Below are positions 3,510-30,939 of a stretch of DNA of 41,313 bases, piece by piece. Position numbers and translations under genes: made by a program. The notes beneath the pieces were generated by a model. It was not told the DNA's origin and did not search any database. It saw nothing but the letters and a program-made list of their open reading frames with translations. The stretch spans positions 1 to 41,313 of IMG/VR virus record IMGVR_UViG_3300037119_001263; one strand, written 5' to 3'. The stretch comes from a virus. Every line of letters begins with the position of its first letter. The stretch's first letter is position 1.

Positions 3510-5154
3510 TTTCCTGCTGCCGCTGCTGTGCTGCCGAAACCAGCCCTGCCCGCAAAGCGATGTTGTAGAGCTGTTGGAGTGCTCGTTGCGTCCTTACCGG
3601 ATTGCCGCGTAGCTGCGCGCGGGTGACCGCTGACGCCGCCCGCACAATCGCCGGCCTGGCCAAGGCCTCGGCGAGCAATCGAGTGCCGACCATGCCGCCG
3701 ATGATGGATATCGGATCGGCCAGGGCACCCGTCAGCATGCCGCCACCGAACATTCCGCGCGAGGTGCCACTGACGTTCTCAAACCGCCCAATACGGTCTT
3801 TGACGTATTGCGACACTGTGAACAGGTCTTGCAACGCAGCATGCTGCTGACCGGTGAATAGTTCATTCCTGGCAGCCGGCGCCATGTTGCCGAAAGCGGT
3901 GACAAATCGCTGGGCGCTGAATTGCCCATCCGGGGCTTGTCCTAGCCGATGGATCAGCGCCGAGCCGACATCGTTCCAGGCATCCGGCCCCATTGCCCGC
4001 TTGGCCAGCCGTAGCCGGGCAAGATCGGCCCCGCCCTTGCTCTGGGCAAAGCCCACCAGCCGGTTAAACACCATTTCCGGGGCGGCATCGCCGGCCGCGC
4101 CGGTGACCTTGGATAGTGCCGTACGCTGCATGTTGGTCAGCCGCGCCAGCGCATTGGCCTCCTGCCATTTGCCAAAGGCTTCCGGGCTGCTCTCGCGCAC
4201 CACGGCGCCTAGATCCTTGGTCAGCGCCCCATAGAGCCGCTTCACCTCGGTCGGCGCCAAGCCGCTGACCGCAAGTTCTTGCGGGCTTTTCTCGCCCAGA
4301 AACGAGCGCAGTCCCTTGGTGCCCTTGTAATCCATGCCGGCAGGATCCTGCACGGCATCGAATACTGTCTCCACCGCTTTGCTGCGGCCCGGAATGCGCG
4401 CGGCGGTACGCTCGGCCATGATCTCCCCGACCATGGCGCGGGTGTTGTCCAGCGGCACCCGGATTGCCGGATCAATCAACTCGTCGGCGGCCTTGTAAGC
4501 CTCGCTGACGGGCCTCTGGCTTTCAGTCTTGATGAAGCCGGTCAGGCCGGCCTTTGCCCGCTCCCCGGCTGTCTCTGCGGTTCCTGCGCCCAATCCCCTC
4601 TTGACCGTGCCCAATTGCTCGGCCAGCCGCTCGGCCGAGTTCACGATCGGCTGGCCAGCGAGTGGCACATTCTTGATCCCGGCCGCCAACTGCGGGATGG
4701 CGGTGCTCTCGGTCGCCATATAGCGCGGGATGTCTACGCCCAGACGGCCAGCGGCCTCCAACGCCGGATCGACGGCAGACGGCCGCGGTGCTGGCGGCGG
4801 TGGCAATATCGGCGTTCCTGCGGGGGCAGTCGAACGAGCGAAGATGCCGCCGGTTCCGCGCGGGGCCATTGGGGTGGCAATACTGGCAAGCTCGGCCGCC
4901 CGGCCTACCGCTTCCTCGCTCAGTGGATCAACCCGCCCAGCATAGACATCACCCGGCAGCGTCACCGCGCCAGAAACGGCCTTTGCCACCGCGCCAGCCA
5001 GCGGCGGCGGGTTCTCATAGACCTTGCGGGCGAAGTTGCCGAGCTTTTCGAGGAAGGGCTTTTGCGGTGCGACCGAGCCAAGCGCCTTGGCAACATCAGC
5101 GTCACTGAAATCATCAGGAAACTGATGCTGCTGGCCCTCAAAATCGACAATCAT
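3484..5154 (-). CDS. Probable DNA ejection / internal virion protein
   Basis: The product has 556 residues. It starts with [20 protein letters not shown], a short N-terminal motif seen in phage virion proteins; Pro/Ala-rich segments (about 60-130) and then a long helical body follow. Near the C-terminus are a Gly/Ile-rich stretch ([19 protein letters not shown]) and basic helices ([15 protein letters not shown]). It is the last of three tandem proteins of this kind (6458-7384, 5151-6443, 3484-5154), placed as ejection proteins are in P22-like phages, after the tail genes. The ATG overlaps the previous stop (ATGA). Role by context; no enzymatic domain is visible. Confidence 0.65.
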
Positions 5155-6443
5155 GGTAGTCGAACCGGATTACCGGCGGCATCGCGGCCCCAGCGCACTG
5201 GACCGCCGGCCGATGTCCCGCCGCCTGCTGCCGCGCCTTTCGGCCGCTGACCTTCTGGTAACTCGAATTGTGGCGGCGGTGCCGTACCGGGACCGTGAAT
5301 GATTTCGTGCCGAATGCGCTTCACCCGGTCGAGGTTGTATAGAAATTGCTCCGGCGTCTGCGACTGATCCAGCGCGCCGATGCTGTCCTGCAACAGCTTG
5401 TGCTCGCCTTGGGTGACGGCGCCGAGGCCGGAGGCGCCGGTGGGCGACTGCGCTCGCATCTGGCTGAGCTTGTCCAGGGACGCATTGGCCTTGATCGTGT
5501 CCACCAGTTTGCCAACGTCAGCCGCCTGCGAACCGGGAATATTCTTCATCAGGTTGCCGAAAGTACCAGCGATCATGCCCGGATATTGCTTGGTCTGATT
5601 AATGGCCCGATCGATGTCCTCGGTAACCGGATCGATCATGCCGGCGTTTCTCTTGCGCGCTTCTTCCGCGGTCTGCTGCTGCACCCGCAGCTTGGTCTGC
5701 TCTTTGCGCCATTCCTTCGGATCAGAGCCAGGAGGCGCCGGCGGAATGCCACCAGTAGATGGTGCTGGCGCGGCACCGCCGGTTGTGGGCGCTGGCGTGC
5801 TGTAATCGCCGCCTGTGCCATAAACAGACCGCCCGACGCCGGCCGTAAATGGATCCGCAGCGGTAGCGGCGTCGGGTGCCGGTTGGCCGGTAAATGGCTG
5901 CGTTTCGCGCGTGCGCTTGTTGGCCCATGCCGGCACGGTTTCGCCCGGATAGGTCGGATGTGGCACCTGCACAATCTGCCAGTCACCCTCGGTTTTCGGG
6001 GTATAGTATTGCTTCATGAACGCCGCTTTTTGCTCCGGCGTGGCATCGGACCCCAGTACATCCTTCATTGCTCTTTGAGCATCGGTGACATCGCCTCGGG
6101 CAAACTGCCGTTCCTTGAGATCACGATCCAGCGCGGCTTGCTGCCGCTGGAATGCATCGTTGGCCGCCTGCCGCGCCTCCTGCGTCTTCTGATGCTGCAA
6201 TTGAGCGGTGCGGTAGCCGCGATTGCTGTCGGCCACCGAGCCGGCCTGATAGCCCTGCAGCGCGGCGGCGTAGGGGCTTTCCCCCGGGCGGTAGGGCGAG
6301 AGCAGCCCCATCCCGAGCCCAACCAAGGAATTGCTGTTTTGCGCAATCGCATCGCCGATGCCGATTTGATTGCCGGCATAGTCGCGCGGGGTAAACGCCA
6401 TCGGCGCATTGCCGCTAAACATGTCCATTAGGCTGGCAGGCAT
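5151..6443 (-). CDS. Probable DNA ejection / internal virion protein
   Basis: The product has 430 residues. The N-terminal 60 residues are Gly/Ala-rich (IGIGDAIAQNSNSLVGLGMG). Residues 80-120 are a Gln/Arg/Ala-rich helix likely to form a coiled coil (QEARQAANDAFQRQQAALDR). Low-complexity Pro/Thr/Ala segments sit near 190-245, and a second helical block follows. No catalytic motif is present. It is coupled by ATGA to the following ejection-type gene and lies 14 bases after the preceding one. Length, helical make-up and place behind the tail genes fit an ejection protein; the exact counterpart cannot be named from sequence alone. Confidence 0.6.
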   Translation of the reverse strand: MPASLMDMFSGNAPMAFTPRDYAGNQIGIGDAIAQNSNSLVGLGMGLLSPYRPGESPYAAALQGYQAGSVADSNRGYRTAQLQHQKTQEARQAANDAFQRQQAALDRDLKERQFARGDVTDAQRAMKDVLGSDATPEQKAAFMKQYYTPKTEGDWQIVQVPHPTYPGETVPAWANKRTRETQPFTGQPAPDAATAADPFTAGVGRSVYGTGGDYSTPAPTTGGAAPAPSTGGIPPAPPGSDPKEWRKEQTKLRVQQQTAEEARKRNAGMIDPVTEDIDRAINQTKQYPGMIAGTFGNLMKNIPGSQAADVGKLVDTIKANASLDKLSQMRAQSPTGASGLGAVTQGEHKLLQDSIGALDQSQTPEQFLYNLDRVKRIRHEIIHGPGTAPPPQFELPEGQRPKGAAAGGGTSAGGPVRWGRDAAGNPVRLP

Positions 6444-6457
6444 CTTGTGGCTCTCCC

Positions 6458-7384
6458 TTATCCCATCATCCCGAGCAGCCCGCCGCCGAGCGCGCCGACG
6501 CCCGCCCCTACCGGCCCGCCGAAGCTGCCGCCAATGCCGGCACCCGCCAGCCCGCCACCGAGTAGTTTCTGCAACGTCGAGGGCGAATTGATCGGCGTGG
6601 TGGTCGTGCCCGTCATGCTGCCGCCGAGCCCGCCAGCTTGGCCACTAATTGCGTTATAGCGAGCAAGTTGCTCCCACGGATAAGCCTGTTGGGCGTTGTA
6701 GAATTTGATCTGATCGTTGAGTAGGGACTGATCGCGCTCTTGCTGATACTCCCCTAGCGCCATCAGCCCTTGCGCCGGCGCCAACCGCGCCTCGTCCAAG
6801 GTCGGCATGAGTTGCGCCCATTGTCCGGCGCGTTGCTGCCCGCTCTCTAGAATGCTTTGCTGTTGCGCCTGCCGGCGGGCGTAATCCTGCGCCAGGATCG
6901 GGTCGGCCGCCTCACTCATAGCGCGGGCCGCCACGTCGCTGTGCATGCCGGAGCCGTAACGGCCGGCACCGCTCATAGACGAGCCGATCTTGTTGCTGAT
7001 TTGCCGGTTGCTGGTGTCCAGCATCGCCTGCAAATACGGGTTTTGATCGCCCTGCGCCTGCTCGTAGAGCGAGCGCAATTCAGGGCTCAAACCTTGGTTC
7101 TGCATCAGGTCGGTGCCGAGCGTGCGCGCCGCCAGCACGCCCTCGGTGCCGCCGCGGGCCGCATCCGGGGTCAGAGTGTCCCGCATATAGCCCATGGCGG
7201 AGGTGATATCCGTATTGAGCGGCGCCTGCGTCGCACCGCTCCACGGCCGGTAACCCGTATCGGTGTTGTACAGAGCTTGCGCGGCGCCCATGGCTTGCTG
7301 CAGATACGGCTGCGCCGGCGCCCATGGGTCTTTGGTCTGCTGCGTTTGCGCCGTAACCGGTTGCTGACTGCTGCTTCCGCCCAT
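6458..7384 (-). CDS. Probable DNA ejection / pilot protein with hydrophobic glycine-rich tail
   Basis: The product has 308 residues starting at MGGSSSQQPVTAQTQQ; this ATG overlaps the upstream stop in ATGA, so the 30-residue upstream extension is rejected. The KDPWAPAQPYLQQA motif at about 18-31 recurs in phage virion proteins found near the tail genes. The middle is Gln/Ala-rich helix with few charges. The last 45 residues are Gly/Leu/Ala-rich and uncharged (GGGLAGAGIGGSFGGPVGAG), like a membrane-inserting segment. It is the first of three tandem proteins of this kind. Function inferred from composition and position. Confidence 0.65.
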   Translation of the reverse strand: MGGSSSQQPVTAQTQQTKDPWAPAQPYLQQAMGAAQALYNTDTGYRPWSGATQAPLNTDITSAMGYMRDTLTPDAARGGTEGVLAARTLGTDLMQNQGLSPELRSLYEQAQGDQNPYLQAMLDTSNRQISNKIGSSMSGAGRYGSGMHSDVAARAMSEAADPILAQDYARRQAQQQSILESGQQRAGQWAQLMPTLDEARLAPAQGLMALGEYQQERDQSLLNDQIKFYNAQQAYPWEQLARYNAISGQAGGLGGSMTGTTTTPINSPSTLQKLLGGGLAGAGIGGSFGGPVGAGVGALGGGLLGMMG

Positions 7385-7797
7385 CAGAGCACCTTTTCCA
7401 TCTGCACATGTGTCATGCGGTAGCCGTGCCGCTTTAGCAGCTTCGACCAGCCGGGCCGGCACAGCGGCCGGCACTCCTTCACTCCTGCATCGCGGAGGAG
7501 ATTTTCGAGATCAGACAAGAGGTGTTGCCATTGTTGCCGGCCATGGCCGGCCGTCCACAGCAACTCGCCGATCAGGTCGGCACCGCGGTAATGCAGTCGC
7601 ACGCCGATCAACCCGGTCGGCTTGTTGGCGGCCTCGTCCCATATCAGAACGATCCGCATTTCCTTGGCCGTTACCTTGCGGATTAATTCAACCAATGTTT
7701 CCTTGGTGCGCCGCGCAATCATCGGGAGAAACGGCATCCAGTGCTGTGCCGTGTCCTGCAACGCCTTATCATCGATTGGAACCGGAATCAGTCGCAT
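7384..7797 (-). CDS. GNAT-fold-like phage protein
   Basis: The product has 137 residues starting at MRLIPVPIDDKALQDTA. The order (helices, a beta strand around IVLIWDEAANKPTGLIGVRL, and a late segment LCRPGWSKLLKRHGYRMTHV) resembles reduced GNAT-like proteins found among T7-type internal virion proteins. The canonical acetyl-CoA loop (Q/RxxGxG/A) is not evident, so it may be structural rather than an acetyltransferase. A second protein of the same type is encoded at 29410-29778. ATGA overlaps couple it to both neighbours, and it directly precedes the ejection-protein cluster, which agrees with a virion role. Confidence 0.6.
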   Translation of the reverse strand: MRLIPVPIDDKALQDTAQHWMPFLPMIARRTKETLVELIRKVTAKEMRIVLIWDEAANKPTGLIGVRLHYRGADLIGELLWTAGHGRQQWQHLLSDLENLLRDAGVKECRPLCRPGWSKLLKRHGYRMTHVQMEKVL

Positions 7798-14403: not shown

Positions 14404-15570
14404 TCAGTCCGAAGCCGAGTTGAAGAACCCGGTGGCAACACCCCATTGCACCAACTTGGTGCCCGACTTGGGGTGTTTCTTGAACATCTTGCCTACGCCG
14501 TACGCGGCCTCGATTCCTGTGCCGGTGATAAAGCCATAGTCATCTTCTTTTCTGAAGGTGGGCTTGGCCATCTGCCCGTACGCAATCACTGCCGCCTGCT
14601 GGCCGCAGAGGAACACCGGCTCGACGCGGGTGCTACCGTTACCGGCAAGCAGCAGGTTGCCGGTTGTGGGCGCGCCCCAAACGGTACTAACGAAGAGCGA
14701 GATCTCCGGCACGCTGCGGACGATCACGCCATCGTACAGCTGATCTCCATCTTGGAATAACGGATTGTCGGGTGCGCCGTTTACCTCACGTCCTTCGCGC
14801 GGGCGCGCATCCTTGTTGACTGTCTCCAATGAGATTTTCAGATCCCGGAAGGTGTTCAATCCGGCGAAGCAGACGAAGTACTCATAACCCGAGCGGGTTT
14901 TGTATGGTCTAATGCGCGGGTTGGCTCCCATCGCCACCCGCTTGAGCAACGACAGGTTAGCCGCCGTGAACTTGTCGGCGGTGGCGTCGACGTTGCCGAG
15001 CGAGGTGGCGTGGTTGGTCGCCGAGTTGGCCGTCGATGCACCGTACAGGATGCGGTCGAGGTTGTTGGTGCGCCATGTGTTTCGTTCAACATCCGTCGCA
15101 AGATCGTACTGGATGCCGTTGACGCGGGTGCCCGCCGCCGGCTGGCTCTCCGATGGCAGGGCCATGAATGCCGCAATGATCTCGTCGCGGGTGACCTCGG
15201 CAAGCCAATCACTCAACAGCGGCTTGGCCTCGCCGAAGATGTCGGCGCTGTCCTTCTGCTGCTCGGCTTTGGTAGTTGCTACTGCATTTCTTACCCATTC
15301 TAGCCAAATTCTCATTCCATAGTCGTCTATCTTTTCTTCATTCCCGACCAGTGGGCCGGTGCTGACACCGGCGCCTTGCAGCCGGGACACCAGCGGGATG
15401 TTCATCACTTCGCCGCCGGCCTTCAATTCCATCCGCTTGCGGATGATGGCGTTGAGATCCTCGCCCATGTAGGGCGAGAACATATTCTCGCGCACCCATT
15501 CGCGATTGATCTGCTGGGTGAACTTAATCAGTTTATTGTTGGTTTGGATGTCGGAGATGGCCATGGCCAT
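14404..15570 (-). CDS. Major capsid protein (DUF4043 / N4 gp56-like)
   Basis: The product has 388 residues. The motif order fits this capsid group: an N-terminal helix (IKFTQQINREWVRENMFSPY), then MNIPLVSRLQGAGVSTGPLV and GNEEKIDDYGMRIWLEWVRN, a kinase-free central domain with CFAGLNTFRDLK, and a C-terminal part with FLCGQQAAVIAYGQM. It would assemble the HK97-fold shell around the scaffold encoded next to it. Two in-frame ATGs exist (15570 and 15564); AGGG sits 5 bases before the first. A stable hairpin with a T-run lies between scaffold and this gene and may separate their messages. Confidence 0.88.
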   Translation of the reverse strand: MAMAISDIQTNNKLIKFTQQINREWVRENMFSPYMGEDLNAIIRKRMELKAGGEVMNIPLVSRLQGAGVSTGPLVGNEEKIDDYGMRIWLEWVRNAVATTKAEQQKDSADIFGEAKPLLSDWLAEVTRDEIIAAFMALPSESQPAAGTRVNGIQYDLATDVERNTWRTNNLDRILYGASTANSATNHATSLGNVDATADKFTAANLSLLKRVAMGANPRIRPYKTRSGYEYFVCFAGLNTFRDLKISLETVNKDARPREGREVNGAPDNPLFQDGDQLYDGVIVRSVPEISLFVSTVWGAPTTGNLLLAGNGSTRVEPVFLCGQQAAVIAYGQMAKPTFRKEDDYGFITGTGIEAAYGVGKMFKKHPKSGTKLVQWGVATGFFNSASD

Positions 15571-15652: not shown

Positions 15653-16615
15653 TTAGCGGTTGGCGAAGCTCCACAGACTATCGGAGCTTAGATCGCCCGG
15701 CGCCTCGGTACGGTTGGCGGTTGACGCCACCGACGAAAGCGAGGGCGGAAGTTGAACGTTGGGCGGATTACCCCGAGCACCGTTGCCTTGTTGTTGCCGA
15801 GCGCGCATCCGCTCCATCATGGCGCGTTGCGCATTCGGGTCGTCGAGCCACTGCTCTTGCTTCTGCTTGATCCACGCATCAGGATCGGCGCCGATTGACG
15901 AATACGCCGACACTTGCTTGTGCCATTTAACCAACTCGCCGTAAGGATGCCCCGCGCTCATGATCTGGTTGAACACGAAGTTGCCCTGCGGCGTGTGCCG
16001 GAATTGCGCCATCGCCGCCAACGCCGCATCCACCACGGGCTGGGTGAATTGCGTATTGGCAAACTCGCGCGAGAGCCCATCCTTCATCTGCATCATGTAG
16101 CGAGTGGCTTCTTGACGCAGAGGGTCAATCACCCGGGTGTTGAGATACTGGTCCGGGTTGTCGAAGATGGTTTCCGGTTGCTGCTGTTGCGCTTGCCGGT
16201 TGGGATCGGTTCGCTGCTGCAACTCCATCACCGCCCGCGTCAATTCTGCCGCGTGCGCTTCCAGACGTTGCCTCGCGTCGCGTTCCGCCAGTAATTCGCG
16301 CAACGGTACCCGACGATCTTCCGGCTGCCGCTGTTGCGGCGGCTGCTCCTGCGGCTTGGGCGCGAATTTCCCGTCAGGGGCTCGCGGTTGCCCGGGCTGT
16401 TGCTGCTGCTCTCCTTGCTGCTGCAGGTCCGGCCGTGTCGACGGCGGCGGCGCGTCCGTATCTCCACCCGGTGATTGCGGGCTTTGCGACGGTTGCGACG
16501 GGGACGGCGACGGTGCCGGCGTGGGATCGGAGTTGGCGTGGTCAAATAGCTGTCTATCGGTGATCGTGGTGGCTTCGCCGCCAACACTCCCACCGAGCGG
16601 TTGCTCGATGCTCAT
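15653..16615 (-). CDS. Scaffolding protein
   Basis: The product has 320 residues, highly charged and rich in Gln and Pro. An unfolded N-terminal third (Pro/Ser repeats, then Gln runs) precedes the motif RRVPLRELLAERDARQRLEA at about 102-121, which I know as a hallmark of phage scaffold proteins. The C-terminal half is helical, with KWHKQVSAYSSIGADPDAWI. It precedes the major capsid gene, as expected. There is no protease domain. It would guide shell assembly and leave or be degraded afterwards. Confidence 0.82.
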   Translation of the reverse strand: MSIEQPLGGSVGGEATTITDRQLFDHANSDPTPAPSPSPSQPSQSPQSPGGDTDAPPPSTRPDLQQQGEQQQQPGQPRAPDGKFAPKPQEQPPQQRQPEDRRVPLRELLAERDARQRLEAHAAELTRAVMELQQRTDPNRQAQQQQPETIFDNPDQYLNTRVIDPLRQEATRYMMQMKDGLSREFANTQFTQPVVDAALAAMAQFRHTPQGNFVFNQIMSAGHPYGELVKWHKQVSAYSSIGADPDAWIKQKQEQWLDDPNAQRAMMERMRARQQQGNGARGNPPNVQLPPSLSSVASTANRTEAPGDLSSDSLWSFANR

Positions 16616-19343: not shown

Positions 19344-21590
19344 TTAATCCTCCGATGTCAGCGCCGCGCCGATCACCTTGCCGGTGCGCGGGTCGCGGTG
19401 GATCACCGCTTTACGCGGCCTGCTCATGGCCTCGATCAGCCCTTGATGCGATTTGCCGATGCTTTCCATCATGTGGGCCAGCATATCGTCGGGCGTCCGG
19501 GTCATGCCGCTGGCCTGCCGGATCTGCTGTTGCTGCATGGCAGCGTCGGCGGCTTCCCGCTGCTTGGCCGCGGCTTCCTGCTGCTTGAGTTGCGCCGTCT
19601 GCTCGGCCTTGAACATCTCGATTTGAATTTGGTTTTGCGCCTTCTCGCGCTCCAGCGCCATTTCCTGGGTAGCGCGCTCGCGCTCGGTCTGCGCCTCAAG
19701 CGCCGCCGCTTGCTGCTTGAGCGTCATATCGGCGGTGGCCTTTTCCTTCTCCAGCGCGAGCTTGGCCTGTGAGGTCTGCTGCTCCAACTGCAGTTTGGCC
19801 TGCGCTTCCGCCTGCTTCGGATCAGGCTGCGTCTGCTCCTGCTCGCCGGCGTCGCGGAACCGCTTCTTCACGTCGGCAGGCAATGGCGAAGTCTCGATGA
19901 GCACATCCATCACCGCCGCGCTCTTGGTCGGCGATAGCATCGGCGCCACCGCCGGTAAGGCTTGGCTGATCGCGTCGTAGGTGTCTTGCATCAAGGTGAC
20001 GGTGTCGGGGCCCTCGTCCAGAATGATGTCAACGTCAAGCTCGCCGATGGCGTTCTGCTTTTGCGGCATGCCATCGGGCCCGGGCACCGTGGCGTTGATC
20101 TGCACGAATTGCGGCTCGCCCTGCGCATCGGTGACGCGGATCCAGCGTTCATTGACCCAATAGCTCTGCGCGGCATTGAACAGCGAGCGATAAACCCGGA
20201 TTTTCCATGATCGTAGGTTAGTCATGTAGGGCCCAAGCTCGGCAATGCCGGCTTGCTGCAACAGCGCGATGGCGCGGCCGGACGAGCCCTTGCCGACATC
20301 GCCGCCGGCAATCGCCGCGTTGGGCCCGAAGTTTTCGATCTCCTGCGCCGCGTCGCGCATGAATTCGAGTTGGCCCATCACCGCCGCCTGCTTGGCTTGA
20401 TCGTCAAAGCGCAGGTCATCGAGCCCGGTGTTGACCAGCACGATGCCATCGGCCCGCGCCGCCTCCTGCCGCAGTTTCTCGACGTTGGTGTCGGCCACCG
20501 CCGCCTTGGTGGCGATGATGCGGCGGTTGTTCAATTCGTGCAGCCCTTTCGAGCGGCGCTGATTAACTTCATCCTGCGGCGATTGCAGGTTACGAACGAA
20601 CCCATACCTATCGCCGTCGTGATCGACCGAGGCCGAGAACATCAGGTATTTGGCGAACTGCTTGCCGTTCTCATCGGTGAACGGCGATTGCCCCTGCATC
20701 AATATCTTGGAGCCGGTGAACAGCGCCCACTTCCACCCGCCCTTCGACTTGTACCAAATGTCAACAAGCCTGACCTGCTTGAAATCGCCGCTGGCCTGGA
20801 ACCATCTGGTGTCGCGGTCGGAATTGCTGGTCAATTCAAGCGAGCTATCGCACGCCGCCTTGATGTCGTCTGCCATGTCGGGAAGAATTTCATTCATCAA
20901 TTCCTCATCGACATATTTGCCCATTCCGACATAGCGCGCGTCGGAGAAGTCGTGCTTGAACGATCGCGGGTCATAAAAAAACCCGTCGTTATCGACGGGT
21001 CCGAAGATCACATCATAGTCGGGCTGTTGTGGTTCTGGTGGCGGCATGCCCGGCATCATGCCTTGTCCGGTCTGCTTCGGGGCCGGCATCGGTTGGAGGT
21101 CCAATTCGATGCCGCCGATGCCGTCCACCGCCGCGGCTTCGTTCACCAGCGGCGCCACCTCGTTCCACTTGTTGCGGTCCATCAGATAGCGCAGCACCGC
21201 GGTCGCCAGATCGGCACCTTCCTGATGCTGCGGCGTACGCGGATAGGCTTTGGGGTCCTGCTTGAGCCGTTCCACCAGCCCGACAATGCCATCGACCTTG
21301 CGGCCGATCTTGTTGTAGGTCACCACCGGCTGCTTGCGCTCATTGAAGGTCTTGATCTGGTCGGATGTCCATTGCGCGCCGTGGCGATAGCGTCGCGCGT
21401 TCTGTTGCTCTTGGATCTCCAAGGTCTTGTTGTCGAGATACGTGGTGTAGGCGTTAATGCACTTTTCCAGCGGCCAAAAGCCCTCTTTGTCTTCGCCCTC
21501 GGGGTCAACGATCGGCGCATTGCGGCCAGCCGCCGAGCCGCCCTGCGGATAACCGCCGCCCCGGATCGACAAGACGTTGCTGATGGCCAT
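19344..21590 (-). CDS. Portal protein, P22-like
   Basis: The product has 748 residues, near the 725 of P22 gp1. The core includes QPVVTYNKIGRKVDGIVGLV, the NDGFFYDPRSFKHDFSDARY segment and SGRAIALLQQAGIAELGPYM, all in the expected order for this family. The last 150 residues are a long Gln/Glu/Ala coiled coil (EKEKATADMTLKQQAAALE) like the barrel of P22-type portals. It would form the dodecameric ring for DNA entry and exit. It lies after the large terminase and a 49-residue coiled-coil gene. The coding sequence contains an intrinsic-terminator-like hairpin at 20974-21000. Confidence 0.88.
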   Translation of the reverse strand: MAISNVLSIRGGGYPQGGSAAGRNAPIVDPEGEDKEGFWPLEKCINAYTTYLDNKTLEIQEQQNARRYRHGAQWTSDQIKTFNERKQPVVTYNKIGRKVDGIVGLVERLKQDPKAYPRTPQHQEGADLATAVLRYLMDRNKWNEVAPLVNEAAAVDGIGGIELDLQPMPAPKQTGQGMMPGMPPPEPQQPDYDVIFGPVDNDGFFYDPRSFKHDFSDARYVGMGKYVDEELMNEILPDMADDIKAACDSSLELTSNSDRDTRWFQASGDFKQVRLVDIWYKSKGGWKWALFTGSKILMQGQSPFTDENGKQFAKYLMFSASVDHDGDRYGFVRNLQSPQDEVNQRRSKGLHELNNRRIIATKAAVADTNVEKLRQEAARADGIVLVNTGLDDLRFDDQAKQAAVMGQLEFMRDAAQEIENFGPNAAIAGGDVGKGSSGRAIALLQQAGIAELGPYMTNLRSWKIRVYRSLFNAAQSYWVNERWIRVTDAQGEPQFVQINATVPGPDGMPQKQNAIGELDVDIILDEGPDTVTLMQDTYDAISQALPAVAPMLSPTKSAAVMDVLIETSPLPADVKKRFRDAGEQEQTQPDPKQAEAQAKLQLEQQTSQAKLALEKEKATADMTLKQQAAALEAQTERERATQEMALEREKAQNQIQIEMFKAEQTAQLKQQEAAAKQREAADAAMQQQQIRQASGMTRTPDDMLAHMMESIGKSHQGLIEAMSRPRKAVIHRDPRTGKVIGAALTSED
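20975..21000 (-). terminator. Intrinsic-terminator-like hairpin inside the portal gene
   Basis: On the minus (sense) strand the perfect 8-bp arms ACCCGTCG and CGACGGGT enclose ATAA and are followed at once by seven T. All parts of a strong Rho-independent terminator are present, yet they are codons for the segment VDNDGFF of the portal protein at about residues 197-205. It may reduce or time expression of genes beyond this point unless antitermination or coupled translation prevents it. Confidence 0.65.
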
Positions 21591-21754: not shown

Positions 21755-23212
21755 TCAATAAGTGCGCCAATCCCCGGGCTGCTCGCCGCGCGGGTGGATC
21801 TGCGCGTAGCCGCTCACGTCAGCCGGCTTCGGCTTGTCTTTTTCCTTCGCCCATGGTCTACTCATACACGCATAGCGTGCACAATCTCCACTATGATCTT
21901 CTGAGTCACTCAACACGTCTTCCGGCCGATCGGGATCGTGCTGCAGAAATGGAACGGTTCTAATGAAATCCACCGCGGTGGAGAAGACCACCATCATCGC
22001 GTGGCCGTCGTCGTTGCCTTCCATGCGCCAGCGCATCACGTCCCAACCGCCATTGGCCCAGCCGCCGGGCTTGTGCACCCGGGAATTGTCGGCGCGGCGA
22101 AACCACACCTTGCCCTGCGAGCCGGTGCCCATGCGCTCGGCGATCGAGGGCCCGCCGTCCTGAATGAAGGCCGAGGGATCGAGCACCCCGTAGGAGATTT
22201 CTTCGTCCTTTTCCCGGGTAGATATCCCCTTCCCCACCTCGTCGGCATTCATCTTGATCCCGACATTCGGCTCGCCCGGCTTCATGCCGTACCATTCGCG
22301 ATAGAGCACCATGGCGCCGCGCGGCAGGAACTTGCCGCCGTAGGTGCCATCGTCCGACACCACCGCCCACCATTGGACGCAGAACGGGTGCGCGGAGCCC
22401 CAATCCATCGCGCGGAACTTGAGCCACTCCTTCGGGATCTCGAATGGTCGCACCACATGCCGCGCCGTCGACCAGCAGTCGAAGAAGGCGCCGAGCGTGA
22501 CGCTCCAATCACCATCCAGCCACGCCTGCACCAATTCCTTGCTGCCCGACGATCGCAGCCGCTGCTTGTAGCTCTCCGCGTCGATGAACGGGTTATTGTC
22601 CACCTTGCTCGGGATGAAGATCCGATCCAGCCCGGTGACGGGATCGTGGATCACCTGATTGCCGAGCGGGAACGGATCGATGTAGCGCGCCTTCACCCAC
22701 TGGTGGCCGGGCCCACCCGGGTTGCCGGTGGCGCGGAAACCTACCGGAACACCCGCACCCGAGCGTAGCGTGGCAAACAGTTTGAACACCGGCGCCGGCG
22801 AGGGGAAGTTGCCGATTTCCTCGATGTAGACGCGGGTATAGCTGTGGCCCTGATAGCCCTCGGCGTCACTATCACGATCCAAGTATGCGAACCGTAGCCG
22901 CGCGCCGCGGGGATCGCGCCAGAGCTTCTCGGTTTCGTTATAGGTCCATTTCAGCGGGCCGTAGATCGCCCGCGACCGCTCGATAGTATCGACCAACTCC
23001 TTATAGGTGCGCCGCACCATCAGGCCCGCGGCGTGCTGCCCAAAGGCGTTGGCGTGCACCATGAACTCGCCCAGCGCGCCGTCGGTCTTGCCACCACCAC
23101 GGGCGCCGCCAAAGAACACTTCGAAAATTGGGCACTCCAGCAGCGCCCACTGCGCCCAGTTTGACCCGGGCGACCAGATGACCCGCTCGATGCGATCGGT
23201 TACGGCGTCCAT
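21755..23212 (-). CDS. Terminase large subunit
   Basis: The product has 485 residues. The Walker A loop GGARGGGKT is at 35-43 and a Walker B strand, RVYIEEIGNF, at about 127-136. The nuclease half has an acidic strand, FRAMDWGSAHPFCVQWW, near 262-278, then a DPSAF motif. The protein would pump DNA through the portal and cut it into genome units. It follows a small-terminase-like gene and a Gly-rich gene, and precedes the 49-residue coiled coil and portal. The ribosome site is weak, so translation may depend on the upstream gene. All key ATPase residues are intact. Confidence 0.92.
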   Translation of the reverse strand: MDAVTDRIERVIWSPGSNWAQWALLECPIFEVFFGGARGGGKTDGALGEFMVHANAFGQHAAGLMVRRTYKELVDTIERSRAIYGPLKWTYNETEKLWRDPRGARLRFAYLDRDSDAEGYQGHSYTRVYIEEIGNFPSPAPVFKLFATLRSGAGVPVGFRATGNPGGPGHQWVKARYIDPFPLGNQVIHDPVTGLDRIFIPSKVDNNPFIDAESYKQRLRSSGSKELVQAWLDGDWSVTLGAFFDCWSTARHVVRPFEIPKEWLKFRAMDWGSAHPFCVQWWAVVSDDGTYGGKFLPRGAMVLYREWYGMKPGEPNVGIKMNADEVGKGISTREKDEEISYGVLDPSAFIQDGGPSIAERMGTGSQGKVWFRRADNSRVHKPGGWANGGWDVMRWRMEGNDDGHAMMVVFSTAVDFIRTVPFLQHDPDRPEDVLSDSEDHSGDCARYACMSRPWAKEKDKPKPADVSGYAQIHPRGEQPGDWRTY

Positions 23213-24373: not shown

Positions 24374-27300
24374 CTAGTAACTCTGCCGCCCGATCCGCAT
24401 CGGACGACGGGCGATCGAGCCGTACCCGAGCGCCTGTGCCATCGGATCTTCCGGATCGGGAGGCCCCTCGGCCAGCGGCATCGGCTCCCCTTCCGGTAAG
24501 CCGCCTTCGCGCCTGTCTTCCATGCGTGATCTCCCGAGCGCAATCAGCCTTGGATCGTTGAGCATACTGCGCCAGTTGGCCTCGTTGAGCGGCAAGCGCC
24601 CGCTGTCGATCATATCCATTAGGACGGGAGAGGGATCCTGTGCATTGCGCGTCTGCCGCAGTATCTCGCGCTCAACGCCACCAAATCGGCCGGGATATTC
24701 TGGGGCCGGTATCTTGGGCCAACGGTCGATATTCTTACCTTTTCCCGGCTGCGGAATATGGGGCCAGACCGTGCCCGGCTGATCCGGCACGAAGTATTCC
24801 GGGCCTTCCTCACCCACCACCACCGGCTCGTTCTTGGCCACACGGCCGCCCTTGGCCAAGGCGCGGATCGAACTGCCCCGCAGGAAGTCGAGTAGCGAGG
24901 CTTGTCGCTCTCCGGGGGGGTTTGCTGGCCCGGGAGGAGCAAAAGGCGGGGTAATCATAAAAGGCAAATCGGGGGAGTTAGGGTCGCGTAATCCGACCGG
25001 AGGTGCGGGAGGTGCAAGACCAAAATCACGGTCCTCAATTATGAGATCAGGATTGCCAATGATCTCCCCTTCCCCATAATCCCGTCCCGGGAAACCCTGA
25101 ATTGCAGGTGGCGCCCCAACATCACGGCCGCCGGCCGCTAAATGAAGCAATCCAGGCGCTTCAGCGATCATCGTTCGGCCGCCCCGCGCAGGCGGCGGGG
25201 GCGGGGCGTTTGGATCTAGCGGCGGGGCGTTTGGATCTGGCGGTTTGGTTAATTCCCGAGCAAATTGTTGTCCGAACGGCACGTCGCTACGCTGCTGCGC
25301 GGGCGAGGGCGGCCCCTGCACGGGACCACCGAACGCTTCCGTTTTTCCGATGACGCCGCCGGAAGCCGCAGGCTTGTAGCCCTGCATCGCTTCGGCAACA
25401 CTTTCGGCAATCTTCTCTTGAACCTTCGATTGGGGAATGGGGAGAAATCCTAACACAGTGGCATTTTTGCCGCCGGGACCGTAACCCATCAAGACGGCGG
25501 TCTTGGCGCCCGTGTCCAGCATCGCGGCCCGGGCCATGGCAGGGGGGACGCCGGCCGCAATCAATGCGGCCCTGCCCGCGGCGCCCTTCGCCATGGCTTC
25601 TTCTTTGGTGGTGTTAGGGTTAATCCCCCGCAACGCCTCCTTCTGGATGGCTGCTATAGTCCGAGCGATCATTACGGGGTCCAATTGCCCGGCGCGCGGC
25701 AGCGTCACCGGAATGTCGAACTCGTTGGGCCTATCGATCGGGGTCCGAATATCGGCTGGCGGGCGCGCGTCGGGCAGCGGCGCCTCGGGCGGTGGCAGTG
25801 CCGCTGGCGGCGGGATATCGGCCGGCGGGCGCACAATATCGGGCGGCTGCAGAACAGTCGGCGGGATATCGGCCGGCGGTCGCGGAACATCTACAGGCCG
25901 CTGCGCTGCTTCCCGCTGCGCGCGGTCTTGCGCCTCTTGTTTCCGTGCAAAGTTCGGGTCCGGCTTGCCGTCGTCGGTCTGGTATTTTCCCGTCAGGGGA
26001 TCGAAGCCTTGGCGGATTTTAGCGGCCAACTCGCGAAAATTTTCCGTCGGTTGAATGTGTGCCGGATCATATGAACCTCGATTGGCATATGTGCGGTTAA
26101 CACCAAATTTCCCACCGTTTTGATCGATCCAACTCCAAACCTGACCCTGATTACCCCTAGTGCCCGTCACATCGAAAGCACGTCCTAATCCGTAGGCATA
26201 GCCTCCCTTTGCAATATCCTCTGCGGAAAGGCGGTTGGCGGATTTCGACACATCGGCATATCCCGGCCAATTCGGCACCGGATTAATACCGCCATAAAGA
26301 GCACGGTTAGCCCTCACGGTATCGGTGCCGCCGTGCCAAGAACCCAGCCCGCGGGCAAAGACCCCTGATGTAATCAACCCTTGCCGAAAATTGTCACGGA
26401 AGGCTGCGGTGATCGTCCAGGGAACGCCGGCCTTATCCATGGCCTTGCCCATGGCTTCGACAACAGTCTTAAAGTCGGGATCGACGCCACCAATAGCATA
26501 TTGCGTTTTTTCCAATGCAAGACGTGAGCCGGACAGAGGGTCTTTAAATGTAAAATTGCCGCCGGCGTCGCTCTTATTTGGCACGCGATCGTAAACATCC
26601 GACAAGTATCGATCGGCCGTCGTTGGCCCCTGCCATGGGGGAGCATCATAAGTACCCTTGATCCCGGGTGCGCCCGCCGATGGTGGTGGTGTTGTGGTCG
26701 GCGGCGCCCCGAGCGGAGGGGCCGGCGGCTGTATGTCGACGAGGCCGGGCTGCGGCGTGGATGGAGCTGGCGCCGGCGGAGCCCCTTGCTGCTGCTCGCT
26801 GGGCGGTGGGGCCGGCGGCGGTGCCGGCGAACCGGAATATTCCCAATTCGTTACTTGGCCGCCCGGGATGAATGATTGAGCCCGGCCCGCGGTGTCGGCA
26901 TAACTCTGTTGCGAAGTGTCGTCCGTCAGGGGAGTGTTCGGGTTGCCCGTAGGCATCCCAGGAGGGGTATCGCCATACACTGCGGCTTGAATGTCTGCGA
27001 TCGTATGGCCGCCGTAAACATTACCCTCCGGCGTGATGTACGGACCACCTGTGCCATAAACGGCGTCTTGAACCTGCCCGAGCGTGATGCCTTGCGATTG
27101 GGGCCGGCCACCGCCCTCTTGGGCCTGACCATAAACGCCATTGGCGATTGCCATCGCCTGCTGTTGTGAAGCACCGGCCTGCTGGGCGGCGGTGGCGGCA
27201 GCTTCGGCTTGCTCGGCGGGACCAGCACCGCGTCCTGCGGCTGCATATGCGGCAGCGGCAGCGGCCCCGGCGGCTTCCGGGGATGCGCCGGCTAGCTGCG

Positions 27301-29413
27301 CGGCCGCGGCAGCAGACTGGGCCGCAGTCTCTGCCGGTTCGGCGGTTCCCTGATACCCGAAATCTGTCTGCTGATTGCCCGGGATGAATGCTTCGATGTT
27401 GCCGCGCTCGCCCTCGAAACTCGTTTCTCTATCCCCTGGGATGAATGCCTCGATGGCCGGCACTACATCTTCGGGTGTGGGTGCCGCGCCCTCGAACACA
27501 TCGCCCCAAGCAGGTTCGCCATAGTTTGGTGCGGCACCTTCGAACACATCACTCCAGGGATCTTGCGGGGTTAACGCCGACTGCGTCAGATCGCTGAGTT
27601 GCTGCGATGCCTCTTGATAGGCTTGGGTAGGCCCAGCGGCACCTTCAAACACATCCGCATCGTTGGGCGCCTGTGCAGGGGCATCGAACACATCTGCATC
27701 GTTGGGCGCCTGTGCGGGAGCCTCGAACACCGACCCCCATGGGGTGGTGTCGGTACTGCGATCACCCACGACATCGGGACCGGCAAAGGGCCCATTATAG
27801 ATGCCCATCGACGATGTCTCATCAACGGGGCTCAGTGCACCGCGAATAGCGTTAAAAATGGAGGTAGTAACCGGGCCCTGGTTCTGCGGCGATAGCCAAG
27901 TGTTAATGTCTGATAGTGGTTTCGATTCTATTCGACTTTCCGCCCGCGCCCCCGCACTGGGATCTACCCAAGGATCGGTAACCGATCTCGTTGAATTTTG
28001 CGCCCACGCTGGAGAGGGAATGGAAATGCCGGGATTGAGCATCCACGATGGAACGGCGCTTATAAGCGATTGCGGCTCAGGCCCTCGCGTCATTAAGTCC
28101 GAGAGCAGAGGATTAGAAGACCACTGCGGGGCCCCCTGATCTGGGCCTAGACGACCACCTCCTACAACATCGGGACCGGCAAACGGTCCAACGTAGGGAC
28201 CCGGCGCCGTCTGCGTCCCACGATCACCAACGACATCAGGGCCGCCAAAGGGTCCATCATACGGGCTTTGCGGCGCGGTCGCCCAGTCCCCGAACGTAAA
28301 GGCTGTCCCGCGATCACCGGCAAGGTCCATGCCGGAGGGAGTGTCCTGCTGCGCCAGCGACGTTTGCGTTAGATCGCTGAGTGTCTGCAGCGCACCGGTC
28401 AGGCTTTGCGGCCCGAAGGCTGACGGCTGTTCTGATGGATTAGCCTCCCGGCTGGCGACCGCTGGCGATGCCTGAGGCGCGACATCTGGAGTAGCAACAG
28501 ATGGCGCAGCTTCAGGTGCAACTTCGCTGGGGGAAACTTCGGCTGCGTGCGGCGAGCCTAGTGGCTCGGCCTCGTCGCCCTTGGATGGCGCGGGATCTGC
28601 AGCGGGTGTCTCAGGCCCCCCGAATTGACTTGTGTCTGGGTCGGCATCGGGCGCGGCCTTACCGGCATCAGGATCGGCACCTTTGCCGCCGCCGGCATCT
28701 GGGTCGGCATCGGGTGCCGCTTCGGATCCACCCTTGCCGGCCGACGCCGGTGCCCACCCCGGGCTGGCGCTAGGACTGCCGGCATAGCTTTTGCCGCCAC
28801 CCTCGCCGCCAAAGTTGCTGGAGCCAAAGTTGCCGAAGGAACCGCCGCTCTTCCCGCCGCCGCCCCCGGTGTAACCGCCGCCACCGCCGCCACCGGTTAA
28901 GCCACCACCGCCGGTGTAACTGCCACCACCACCGCCGCCACCACTCCCGCCAAACAGGCCACCACCGCCTTGGTCGCCATAAAAGCCGCCGCCCTGCGTC
29001 GCGCCAAACATGGCGCCGCCTGGCCCGCCACCGGTCCCTTCCGCGCTGAATGCGCCGGCCGAGCCCCAATCGCCGCCGCCGGTGAATACGCCAGGGTTGG
29101 GGCCGGCAACGTCAGTGAAGATCGCATTCGGGGCGTTGTAGCCGCTGTAATTCGTGGCACCGAAGCTGCCCCAATCACCGCCGCCGCCGCCGGCATAACT
29201 GGCAGAATCGTAGGCGCTGCCCGCCCAGGCGCCGAGGTCGCCGCCGGCATTGTAGCTCGATGCATCGTAGCTTCCGGAACTGCCCCAATCGCCGCCGCCG
29301 GTGGTGACACCGCTGCCCTCGCCGCCGGGGCCGCCGCCGCTGCCCCAGCATAGCCGCAGGCTTCGCGGCAACCATTCATCAACGGTGCCGGAATCCCATG
29401 GCCGCTGCATCAT
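24374..29413 (-). CDS. Giant repeat-rich virion protein with degenerate M15 peptidase-like domain
   Basis: The product has 1679 residues. Parts in order: a Gly/Tyr-rich N-terminus with GGGDWGS repeats (about 20-225); Pro/Ala/Asp repeats including GPFAGPDVVGDR, APAQAPNDADVF and AFIPG motifs (to about 680); an Ala-rich helix region; Pro-rich linkers; then a domain near 930-1130 like M15 D-Ala-D-Ala peptidases, with ITAAFRD, YGLGRAFD and DPAHIQ. There the usual zinc-ligand His is Tyr1074, while D1081 and H1119 remain, so activity is doubtful. A VVGEEGPEYFVPDQPGT motif near 1532, seen at the end of tape-measure-like proteins, follows. The protein ends RIGRQSY, a tag shared with neighbours. It starts with an ATGATG overlapping the previous stop. 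Confidence 0.72.
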   Translation of the reverse strand: MMQRPWDSGTVDEWLPRSLRLCWGSGGGPGGEGSGVTTGGGDWGSSGSYDASSYNAGGDLGAWAGSAYDSASYAGGGGGDWGSFGATNYSGYNAPNAIFTDVAGPNPGVFTGGGDWGSAGAFSAEGTGGGPGGAMFGATQGGGFYGDQGGGGLFGGSGGGGGGGSYTGGGGLTGGGGGGGYTGGGGGKSGGSFGNFGSSNFGGEGGGKSYAGSPSASPGWAPASAGKGGSEAAPDADPDAGGGKGADPDAGKAAPDADPDTSQFGGPETPAADPAPSKGDEAEPLGSPHAAEVSPSEVAPEAAPSVATPDVAPQASPAVASREANPSEQPSAFGPQSLTGALQTLSDLTQTSLAQQDTPSGMDLAGDRGTAFTFGDWATAPQSPYDGPFGGPDVVGDRGTQTAPGPYVGPFAGPDVVGGGRLGPDQGAPQWSSNPLLSDLMTRGPEPQSLISAVPSWMLNPGISIPSPAWAQNSTRSVTDPWVDPSAGARAESRIESKPLSDINTWLSPQNQGPVTTSIFNAIRGALSPVDETSSMGIYNGPFAGPDVVGDRSTDTTPWGSVFEAPAQAPNDADVFDAPAQAPNDADVFEGAAGPTQAYQEASQQLSDLTQSALTPQDPWSDVFEGAAPNYGEPAWGDVFEGAAPTPEDVVPAIEAFIPGDRETSFEGERGNIEAFIPGNQQTDFGYQGTAEPAETAAQSAAAAAQLAGASPEAAGAAAAAAYAAAGRGAGPAEQAEAAATAAQQAGASQQQAMAIANGVYGQAQEGGGRPQSQGITLGQVQDAVYGTGGPYITPEGNVYGGHTIADIQAAVYGDTPPGMPTGNPNTPLTDDTSQQSYADTAGRAQSFIPGGQVTNWEYSGSPAPPPAPPPSEQQQGAPPAPAPSTPQPGLVDIQPPAPPLGAPPTTTPPPSAGAPGIKGTYDAPPWQGPTTADRYLSDVYDRVPNKSDAGGNFTFKDPLSGSRLALEKTQYAIGGVDPDFKTVVEAMGKAMDKAGVPWTITAAFRDNFRQGLITSGVFARGLGSWHGGTDTVRANRALYGGINPVPNWPGYADVSKSANRLSAEDIAKGGYAYGLGRAFDVTGTRGNQGQVWSWIDQNGGKFGVNRTYANRGSYDPAHIQPTENFRELAAKIRQGFDPLTGKYQTDDGKPDPNFARKQEAQDRAQREAAQRPVDVPRPPADIPPTVLQPPDIVRPPADIPPPAALPPPEAPLPDARPPADIRTPIDRPNEFDIPVTLPRAGQLDPVMIARTIAAIQKEALRGINPNTTKEEAMAKGAAGRAALIAAGVPPAMARAAMLDTGAKTAVLMGYGPGGKNATVLGFLPIPQSKVQEKIAESVAEAMQGYKPAASGGVIGKTEAFGGPVQGPPSPAQQRSDVPFGQQFARELTKPPDPNAPPLDPNAPPPPPARGGRTMIAEAPGLLHLAAGGRDVGAPPAIQGFPGRDYGEGEIIGNPDLIIEDRDFGLAPPAPPVGLRDPNSPDLPFMITPPFAPPGPANPPGERQASLLDFLRGSSIRALAKGGRVAKNEPVVVGEEGPEYFVPDQPGTVWPHIPQPGKGKNIDRWPKIPAPEYPGRFGGVEREILRQTRNAQDPSPVLMDMIDSGRLPLNEANWRSMLNDPRLIALGRSRMEDRREGGLPEGEPMPLAEGPPDPEDPMAQALGYGSIARRPMRIGRQSY
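27643..27720 (-). repeat. Two tandem 39-bp repeats inside the giant gene
   Basis: Copies at 27643-27681 and 27682-27720 differ at a few bases; a third partial copy follows. Each unit encodes 13 residues of the form VFDAPAQAPNDAD. Recent in-frame duplication is the simplest explanation. Confidence 0.75.
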
Positions 29414-29778
29414 TCGGTCAGAACCTTTCTGCGCCTAGTGCCGCAACTCTGCCAACCCGGCATCGCCTTGACCCAGCCGTCACGGCCCCAGCCGATCAGC
29501 CAGTCGCAGCCCTGCGCTCGCGCGTATTTCTCGATCGCGGGGTACATGGTCTTGAGTTCGGCAAGCTCGCCGCCCTGCAACCAGACCGAACAGCATTTTA
29601 TGCCGATCGGATAGGTCACCATGGTAGTGACGATGACGGCCTGCTCGCCCGGCCACAGGACAGAGTGGCCGCGGTTGATCGCTTCCCAAACCTGATCCTT
29701 GGTATGGGTAGCGCCGAATTCGTTCAGCGAGGCTTCAAGCCACGGCCAGCAGCGGCTGAATTCGGCGCTTATTCGCAA
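29410..29778 (-). CDS. GNAT-like phage protein, second copy
   Basis: The product has 122 residues from a TTG start with AAGGA 6 bases upstream; it overlaps the preceding exported-protein gene by 10 bases. The order resembles the GNAT-like protein at 7384-7797: helices with DQVWEAINRGHSVLWPGEQ, strands (VIVTTMVTYPIGI), then a late helix (ELKTMYPAIEKYARAQGCDW) and GWVKAMPGWQSCGTRRRKVL. The acetyl-CoA loop is not clear, so enzyme activity is uncertain. ATGATG couples it to the giant virion gene downstream. Reduced GNAT folds occur among internal virion proteins of T7-like phages. Confidence 0.6.
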   Translation of the reverse strand: MRISAEFSRCWPWLEASLNEFGATHTKDQVWEAINRGHSVLWPGEQAVIVTTMVTYPIGIKCCSVWLQGGELAELKTMYPAIEKYARAQGCDWLIGWGRDGWVKAMPGWQSCGTRRRKVLTE

Positions 29779-30035
29779 AGCACATCCTTTTTCTGCTTTG
29801 CGGCTCCAACACCCTTAACGCGCTCTGGACTATTACCGCTGGGGCAACCCCAACCATATTCGTTCGGATCGGTGACGTAGTTTTTCGGATCGCATAGGCG
29901 CTTGGCTGTCGCCATCTCGCCGATAAGGTGAAACATCTCGCGGATGCATTTGCGACGATCCGCAAAGGGGTCTTCGGCCTGTGCGGCCACGCTACCGACC
30001 GCGAGCAACACAATACTGAGCACGAGTATTCGCAT
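29769..30035 (-). CDS. Exported small four-Cys protein
   Basis: The product has 88 residues. MRILVLSIVLLAVGSVAAQA is a clean signal peptide with a likely cut after AQA; mature start EDPFADRRKCIREMF. Four Cys in the mature part (KCIREM, LCDPKN, GCPSGN, VLCE) could form two disulfides in the periplasm. A GGGAG site lies before the ATG at 30035, and a strong promoter (30059-30087) sits directly upstream, so this is the first gene of the transcript that continues into the late operon. No family is recognised. Being exported and placed first, it may alter the host surface or act in lysis timing. Confidence 0.72.
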   Translation of the reverse strand: MRILVLSIVLLAVGSVAAQAEDPFADRRKCIREMFHLIGEMATAKRLCDPKNYVTDPNEYGWGCPSGNSPERVKGVGAAKQKKDVLCE

Positions 30036-30058
30036 GACATTTCTCCCTGTCTGCAGGG

Positions 30059-30087
30059 AGTATCCCACAAGACGTGGGCCACGTCAA
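30059..30087 (-). promoter_or_regulatory. Promoter A with operator, ahead of the late operon
   Basis: Minus strand: -35 TTGACG (30082-30087), 17-base spacer, -10 GATACT (30059-30064). The spacer holds the inverted repeat CCCAC-N5-GTGGG (30064-30078). The same -35 and repeat design occurs at 31661, 37103 and 37359, so a shared regulator is likely. Confidence 0.78.
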
Positions 30088-30094
30088 GTGGATA

Positions 30095-30496
30095 TCAGGC
30101 CTCGCCGCCATAGCTCTGGCGGCCAATCTGCATCAGCCCGGGAGGGGGCGCGGCCAAGCTCACCGCAGGGGCAACCACCGCAACCTTCTTGCCGCCCTTG
30201 AAACTGTCCTTCTCGCCCTCGCGGAACGGATTGTCCTGACGCAGATAGCTGTCAGAGAACCCGAACGGAGAAATGTCGCCCTCGACCACATCGCAACTAT
30301 GGCCCTTGCTGTCGAAGTGGCCGCACAGGCCGCAACTGCGCTGCGGGTTACCCTCGCGGTAGTTGGCCGCCTCCTGCGTCTGCTTGGCAGGCTCGGCGGG
30401 CTCGGCGGGCTCGCTGGCCTCGCTGGCCTCTTCCTGCGGTGGCTGCGGGCCTTCGGCCATTTCGTCATCGGGCATGGTCGAATAGGTGTCGCTCAT
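30095..30496 (-). CDS. Cys-containing accessory protein ending in the IGRQSY tag
   Basis: The product has 133 residues. An acidic, Pro/Glu-rich N-terminus (EEASEASEPAEPAEPAK) leads to CGLCGHFDSKGHSCDVVEGD and ISPFGFSDSY. This spacing recalls high-potential iron-sulfur proteins, but where their fourth Cys would be (GWC) it has Ser, so a cluster is doubtful. The C-terminus is PPGLMQIGRQSYGGEA; the same tag closes the next protein upstream and, shortened, the giant protein. Start ATG 30496 overlaps the upstream stop as ATGA. Promoter A lies in the gap just after this gene. Function unknown. Confidence 0.68.
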   Translation of the reverse strand: MSDTYSTMPDDEMAEGPQPPQEEASEASEPAEPAEPAKQTQEAANYREGNPQRSCGLCGHFDSKGHSCDVVEGDISPFGFSDSYLRQDNPFREGEKDSFKGGKKVAVVAPAVSLAAPPPGLMQIGRQSYGGEA

Positions 30497-30939
30497 CGCG
30501 GACCGCCATAGATTTGGCGGCCAATCTGTAGCAACCCAGGCGGTAAGCCGCCTTGCCCGCCTAGCCCAGGCATCCCAGCCGGCGCATTGGGCGGCATGCC
30601 GGGCGGTGGTCCGGGCGGCATGCCTTGGGGCCGCATGCCCTGCATCCATGGTGGCGGCTGCATGCCGCCGGGCGGCATCCCAGGTGGCATACCCTGACCC
30701 ATGCCGGGCGGCATGCCCCCCAGACGGGGCCCCGGTGGCATTCCTGGAGGCATCCCTGGAGGCATCCCTCCCGGTGGCCGCGGCGGCATCCCCGGAGGAC
30801 CACCGCCCGGCCCCGGTAGCCCCGGAGGCCGGTTCAAAGGGCCGGGGCCGGGCATACGCTGGCGGCCGATCATCAGGCCGCCGCCGGGACGGCCCAAGTT
30901 CATACCGGGCTGACCGGGCATCGTGTTATCGTAGGGCAT
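30493..30939 (-). CDS. Pro/Gly/Met-rich low-complexity protein with IGRQ tags
   Basis: The product has 148 residues, nearly all Pro, Gly, Met and Arg, with repeated GMPPGMPPGMPPG units. It starts MPYDNTMPGQPGMNLGRPGG, carries LMIGRQRMPG at about 22-31, and ends LLQIGRQIYGGPR, so the tag is present at both ends. Such a protein should be disordered or form collagen-like helices; no fold is recognised. GAGG sits 7 bases before the ATG. The opening MPYD is shared with the next upstream gene. It is probably a virion or assembly factor, inferred only from the tag and setting. Confidence 0.68.
   Translation of the reverse strand: MPYDNTMPGQPGMNLGRPGGGLMIGRQRMPGPGPLNRPPGLPGPGGGPPGMPPRPPGGMPPGMPPGMPPGPRLGGMPPGMGQGMPPGMPPGGMQPPPWMQGMRPQGMPPGPPPGMPPNAPAGMPGLGGQGGLPPGLLQIGRQIYGGPR

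Follow-up and report, generated by a model that had tools for sequence, protein, structure and literature searches.

Proteins with at least 11 kinds of body, among which BLAST clustering detects no similarity, end in the same short peptide in a single clade of soil bacteriophages. The peptide, [M/L/V/T]-x-I-G-[RNSK]-[QKR]-x-Y, is conserved throughout the clade, and homologous bodies found in other phages lack it. The shared end is thus well supported, from these sequence comparisons, as a functional signal that would act at the protein level. The best reading of this signal, drawn by analogy and from the roles that some of the tagged bodies have elsewhere, is head entry or binding to one common partner. 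We think it somewhat probable that the peptide is a modular virion-loading tag, which would dock its bearers on a component of the head so that they are delivered as cargo with the DNA.

Three genes of the window end in IGRQxY

The window, by which we mean the whole stretch of 41,313 nucleotides analysed here (an IMG/VR virus record), is a podovirus-like genome. Its ends overlap exactly by 107 bases (1-108 and 41206-41313), which indicates a complete circular assembly of approximately 41.2 kb, and the count of three tags within it is, therefore, final. The virion module is P22/Pam1-like, with terminase, portal, a Phage_capsid_3 capsid protein and ejection proteins (Table 1). Between the portal and scaffold genes lies a reading frame (16727-18925) for a 732-aa protein with GSYTLTGS-like repeats and a beta-helix-like middle, which matched no family.

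Table 1. Positions of the tagged genes, their tags and the head genes of the window
Feature	Positions	Strand	Remarks
Second canonical ejected protein	5151..6443	(-)	phrog_2534 'released from the phage upon host infection'; untagged, ends AAGNPVRLP
DNA ejection protein (canonical)	6458..7474	(-)	phrog_4287; untagged, ends GGGLLGMMG
Major capsid protein (MCP), candidate docking partner	14404..15570	(-)	Phage_capsid_3; matches PDB 7eel_A 'Major capsid proteins', 186 bits
Likely scaffolding protein, candidate docking partner	15653..16615	(-)	Assigned by position and composition; gene order as in Pam1/Pam5
Portal protein, candidate docking partner	19344..21590	(-)	phrog_156
TerL	21755..23212	(-)	phrog_2; untagged; anchor for the phylogeny of the tagged clade
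Giant Gly/Pro-rich protein, 1679 aa	24374..29413	(-)	Ends ALGYGSIARRPMRIGRQSY (RIGRQSY); weak VanY/M15-like domain
Tag IGRQSY of the giant	24377..24394	(-)	Codons ATC GGG CGG CAG AGT TAC, adjoining the stop
Cys protein, 133 aa	30095..30496	(-)	Ends LMQIGRQSYGGEA; three invariant Cys, Pro/Ala/Gly linker, tag, tail GGEA
Tag IGRQSY of the Cys protein	30110..30127	(-)	Codons ATT GGC CGC CAG AGC TAT
Pro/Gly/Met-rich protein, 148 aa	30493..30939	(-)	Ends LLQIGRQIYGGPR
Tag IGRQIY of the Pro/Gly/Met protein	30508..30525	(-)	Codons ATT GGC CGC CAA ATC TAT
Internal tag-like IGRQ of the 148-aa protein	30859..30870	(-)	GGGLMIGRQRM, LMIGRQRMPG; near the start of the protein

The first-pass annotation had reported that three unlike proteins share an IGRQxY C-terminus. 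Every coordinate and sequence that it gave proved to be correct, and the bodies are indeed unrelated, in that no mutual similarity could be detected. A search of the 41,313-base genome for the DNA pattern ATHGGNMGNCARNNNTAY gave exactly three hits, which are the three ends, and none for its reversed control; no further gene ending in the tag was found among the plausible genes of the window. When all ORF ends of the window were compared blindly, other chance pairs of 7-mers scored similarly. From the window alone, the resemblance of the three ends is suggestive only; the relatives make the tag certain. The internal LMIGRQRMPG, to which the first-pass annotation had also drawn attention, is present near the start of the 148-aa protein but has no counterpart in the relatives; its significance is doubtful, and it may be incidental.

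The VanY domain of the giant scored 16.9 bits, where Pfam requires 25. A search of 50,697 phage records returned homologues of neither the giant nor the Cys protein. Within the family of the Cys protein, a fourth site is occupied by Cys in one subgroup and usually by Ser in the others, and the protein loosely recalls HiPIP-type Fe-S proteins; an AF2 model of its fold was too poor for use.

The tag is conserved throughout one phage clade

A search with the window's TerL yielded 53 IMG/VR contigs, and further relatives came from alignments of three proteins: TerL, the Cys protein and an approximately 105-aa protein encoded directly 3′ of TerL. A strict tag was defined as I-G-[RNSK]-[QKR]-x-Y at most six residues from the C-terminus, with a hydrophobic residue or Thr two places before the motif. 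When conservation in the relatives was examined, at least one tag was found to end a protein in 86 of the 89 loci of one clade (TerL at least 66% identical), the three others being short fragments of 5-9 kb. In the 89 clade loci, strict tags ended 139 of 7,356 ORF frames on the TerL strand as against 0 of 8,591 on the opposite strand; the untagged relatives gave 2 of 12,710 and 2 of 14,549 ORF frames, which is background. In all of 90 non-redundant tags, the stop follows the motif after 0-5 residues and M, L, V, F or T occupies position −2; the linker ahead is 49% Pro plus Gly plus Ala.

A search by motif presupposes I, G and Y, and the unbiased check is therefore one in which homologues are fetched by their bodies alone and their ends are then read. 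The family encoded after TerL was tagged in all 33 cases, and two small families in 8 of 8 and 3 of 3 cases inside the clade. The Cys family was tagged at 21 of 23 distinct C-termini, both exceptions lying in one frame-broken contig, and the giant at 14 of 16, where the exceptions are that same contig and L090. The tag is truly absent from the L090 giant, which ends PPGSWPY; this giant (L090/G002) and the Gly-rich protein of G001 are among the giant proteins of the clade that lack the tag. Outside the clade, homologous bodies are untagged (L108, Pseudomonas phage 201phi2-1, Erwinia phage Hallingskeid and Escherichia phage Bas106). A protein of L151 ends PPWLQIGSKRYG, whereas the protein at the equivalent place in L155 ends PYPWI, which shows that the tag is gained and lost as a whole.

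The 28 truly tagged rows group together in the TerL tree as a single clade (support 100), and the boundary between tagged and untagged phages falls between 66% and 65% TerL identity. A 29th row scored as tagged, L059, was discarded as a 52-aa chance ORF. A scan of the whole of IMG/VR for PGL-x-x-IGR[QK]xY returned 18 stretches, 16 of them in contigs of the clade; the other two (L220 and L227) are chance antisense matches inside a large ORF. IGRKTY in L003 and L008 is also a chance match, out of frame inside TerL. The tag is absent from Pam1, Pam5, Pan3 and ctMlz233, and no other shared C-terminal tag was found in the sister phages. Sister prophages reside in Nitrobacteraceae and other Hyphomicrobiales, so hosts of this kind are likely for the tagged clade. 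In one member (G001, contigs L205-L207), the MCP gene is split over both contig ends with an overlap, which makes it, too, a complete genome, in circularly permuted form.

Tagged bodies and their place in the genome

Besides the three proteins of the window, the tagged bodies include the approximately 105-aa KFAAFxGSLSP... protein after TerL, a 112-aa EPGNIDL...RPVVKNPDGSISTVRS protein, an approximately 70-aa AQRRLMAAAAH...VGKEFNEAD protein, an 85-aa MPTPDMTNWPPEYIREY protein, a SPRY-like 238-aa protein, and proteins of 148 aa (L016), approximately 194 aa (L084) and 124 aa (L151). A further body of approximately 410 aa (L161) carries an ART-PolyVal domain, which at 30.5 bits is just under the Pfam cutoff of 31.2. 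The stand-alone 112-aa protein corresponds to a domain that Bas106 has in its P22-gp16-like DNA transfer protein and that structural proteins of SPN1S-type phages also contain. The approximately 70-aa family matches virion structural families, and the SPRY-like protein matches virion structural proteins weakly; no tagged body other than the 112-aa protein matched ejection families. In an AF2 model of a tagged protein of approximately 90 aa, two helices are followed by approximately 55 residues that are almost unstructured.

All tags of the window lie upstream of TerL on the strand of the packaging and structural genes. The tagged genes of the relatives are found in the late packaging module, either upstream of TerS/TerL or in the interval from TerL to portal. 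Among the genomes examined that were complete or long, the tail, lysis and replication genes proved to be untagged. No receptor gene or domain specific to the tagged clade stood out, and the core head genes are common to tagged phages and untagged relatives. Upstream of the Cys gene, in L012, L150, L152, L153, L154 and L159, a gene for a small protein (GPCYSACTLV...FHAVRS...GGWxxLPLxGYW) replaces 29769-30068 of the window; the protein has a signal peptide in L152, L153, L154 and L159 and, judged only by eye, recalls a ClpP-like fold. In L009, L045 and L157, tandem genes that look, again by eye only, like phosphoribosyltransferases lie upstream of the Cys gene.

A proposed virion-loading role for the tag

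One interpretation of these results, and the one that we prefer, is that the tag, held on a flexible linker rich in Pro, Ala, Gly and Lys behind unlike bodies, would bind one common site on a head component during head assembly, most likely the inner capsid face or the scaffold. Binding would bring diverse proteins into the virion: the cell-wall hydrolase-like giant and the Cys protein in the window, and an ADP-ribosyltransferase, an ejection-protein domain and others in the relatives. The cargo would then be delivered along with the DNA, and any gene could turn into cargo by gaining the tag. The scaffold candidate is 50-56% identical among tagged relatives as against 27-35% in untagged relatives. 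Head loading is suggested by the virion or injected roles that some of the bodies have elsewhere, together with a core and linker that recall those of encapsulin cargo. Against it speak the untagged giants of the clade, the absence of tags from the canonical ejection proteins, ART-PolyVal and VanY matches that fall under their cutoffs, the missing S-L pair, and the fact that no receptor domain peculiar to the tagged clade emerged.

Encapsulin targeting peptides are C-terminal, follow Gly/Pro-rich linkers and conform to GSLxIGSLK or SDGSLGIGSLKRS, with GGDLGIRK in T. maritima (PMC10960027, PMC8346489), and encapsulin shells belong to the HK97 lineage, as do tailed-phage capsids (PMC9698820). 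Like the Family 1 encapsulin peptides, the phage tag is short and C-terminal, has a Gly/Pro-rich linker and is found on unlike cargo bodies; the core common to both is hydrophobic-x-I/V-G (LxIGSLK, LTVGSLRR and LGIRK in encapsulin cargo). However, the tag departs from the encapsulin consensus (G)SLxIGSL(K/R), with which it agrees at the hydrophobic residue of position −2 (M/L/V/F, or T), at I and at G; S-L is replaced by [RNSK][QKR], and an invariant Y stands at the end. Nor is the shell an encapsulin, given that the MCP belongs to Phage_capsid_3, is related to PDB 7eel_A and is accompanied by the portal and terminase of a DNA-packaging phage. We, therefore, rejected the tag as an encapsulin peptide, the S-L pair and the encapsulin shell both being absent. 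A further difference is that about a dozen body types bear the tag within one phage clade. Encapsulin peptides bind a luminal pocket in the P-domain of their shell, and a corresponding docking of the phage tag would be expected by analogy.

In phage T4, the capsid targeting sequence (CTS) is N-terminal and is removed by the prohead protease. The proposed tag would resemble it in that a brief signal directs proteins of different kinds into the head for injection. A T4-type CTS was nonetheless rejected, because all of the tags stand at the very end of the C-terminus, where a protease would have almost nothing to remove; nor did the module show a prohead protease. The first-pass annotation had suggested a sorting, assembly or cleavage signal. 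A functional signal at the protein level is upheld by the clade-wide occurrence, the variety of bodies and the free variation of synonymous sites, whereas cleavage is disfavoured, since cutting so close to the stop would free almost nothing.

The window also encodes proteins of the type of the P22 ejection proteins (gp7, gp16 and gp20) or T7 internal virion proteins, and these are untagged. We know of no shared C-terminal signal in the P22 or T7 proteins. Because the canonical ejection proteins of the window lack it, the tag would serve at most a second route of loading. Another related system is that of the polyvalent proteins. The portion of Iyer et al. 2017 (PMC5512222) on which we draw presents T4 Alt, the prototype of the ART-PolyVal enzymes, as packaged in the head and injected. 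A putative ART-PolyVal domain, just under its cutoff, occurs on one tagged protein, and the cargo is presumably packaged and injected in both systems; polyvalent proteins join many effector domains, such as ART, MPTase or ArdC, in one chain, whereas here single domains on separate chains have a common tag. That portion of the article describes no shared C-terminal tag for polyvalent proteins.

No precedent for such a C-terminal tag was found in the literature and phage records searched. How proteins are chosen for head entry is known in only a few phage models. If the virion-loading reading is true, a six-residue C-terminal address on about a dozen bodies would amount to a simple rule by which virion cargo could be predicted from sequence, applicable to a widespread soil phage clade and pointing to undescribed injected effectors. 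It would also link phage and encapsulin cargo loading in HK97-lineage shells and provide a tool to load chosen proteins into phage heads. More tentatively, it is possible that the address is an open one, in which any protein ending ...I-G-x-x-x-Y would be loaded and delivered, so that the phages would maintain an open set of effectors apart from the ejection route and convergent with encapsulin loading.

Alternatively, the tag might bind a common phage partner without leading its bearers into the interior, either by anchoring them as decoration on the outer capsid surface, on the portal/terminase complex or on the tail, or by recruiting assembly factors absent from the mature virion. The clustering of the tagged genes at TerS/TerL and portal is consistent with such a partner, and the SPRY-like 238-aa protein and the Gly-rich proteins would be suited to surface display. 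We consider this scenario rather unlikely, as a polyvalent-type ADP-ribosyltransferase and an ejection-protein domain make most sense if they are delivered into the cell. Another scenario, for which we see still less likelihood, is that the tag addresses a host protein, such as a chaperone, a protease adaptor, or a membrane or nucleoid partner, for localisation or controlled turnover of phage proteins, whether early or late. Short C-terminal motifs are commonly degrons or binding motifs, and the tag is always 0-5 residues from the end; however, the tagged genes are embedded in, and co-oriented with, the late packaging and structural module, early and replication genes lack the tag, and several bodies are virion-type domains. 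A final aromatic Y with an optional G, E, D or R is also unlike the hydrophobic C-terminal degrons that are known.

Selection on the peptide

Across 54 distinct pairs of tags within loci, the codons at shared residues were identical in 134 of 235 cases, compared with 112 ± 7.5 expected from codon usage. The synonymous codons thus differ nearly as they would between independent genes, which argues for selection on the peptide. An RNA or DNA signal was rejected because synonymous positions vary freely; a CCGCCA/TGGCGG inverted repeat is present in one or two of the window copies and is absent from that of the giant. That the shared ends are relics of duplication or of a recombination hot spot, and the peptide functionless, is very improbable: tails do seem to have been swapped between bodies (for example NKKKPxLxIGRQxY), and the neighbours 30095-30496 and 30493-30939 are alike (4 of 5 tag codons in common, 16 of 18 nucleotides identical in the tag and 14 of 24 upstream), but nucleotide identity drops from 69% inside the tag to 39% in the 24 bases upstream, the tag of the giant has 0-1 of 5-6 codons in common with either other window tag, and peptide and position have been retained across deep divergence within the clade. 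Recent duplication without conservation, which the first-pass annotation had named as the counter-explanation, is thus refuted for the clade as a whole, and duplication appears possible only for the origin of the tail of 30493-30939.

That tail may be a local copy of the one in 30095-30496. The Pro/Gly/Met protein begins with MPYD, as does an untagged conserved neighbour (MPYDPRMLQMARxGIGMM...WWEQPLP...SPWAWLGSLGGG; 30958-31305 in the window, and also in L145, L146, L147, L152, L153 and L156), and it is apparently a chimera of its neighbour's start and a tag that resembles that of 30095-30496. A 24-aa ORF, MPTPDMTGWPPGLLTIGRQRYEGR, at 1884-1955 of L021, with copies in L022, L026, L029 and L195, corresponds to the 85-aa tagged protein of L024 after loss of the body, which lay between WPP and QPP; start and tag are still in frame.
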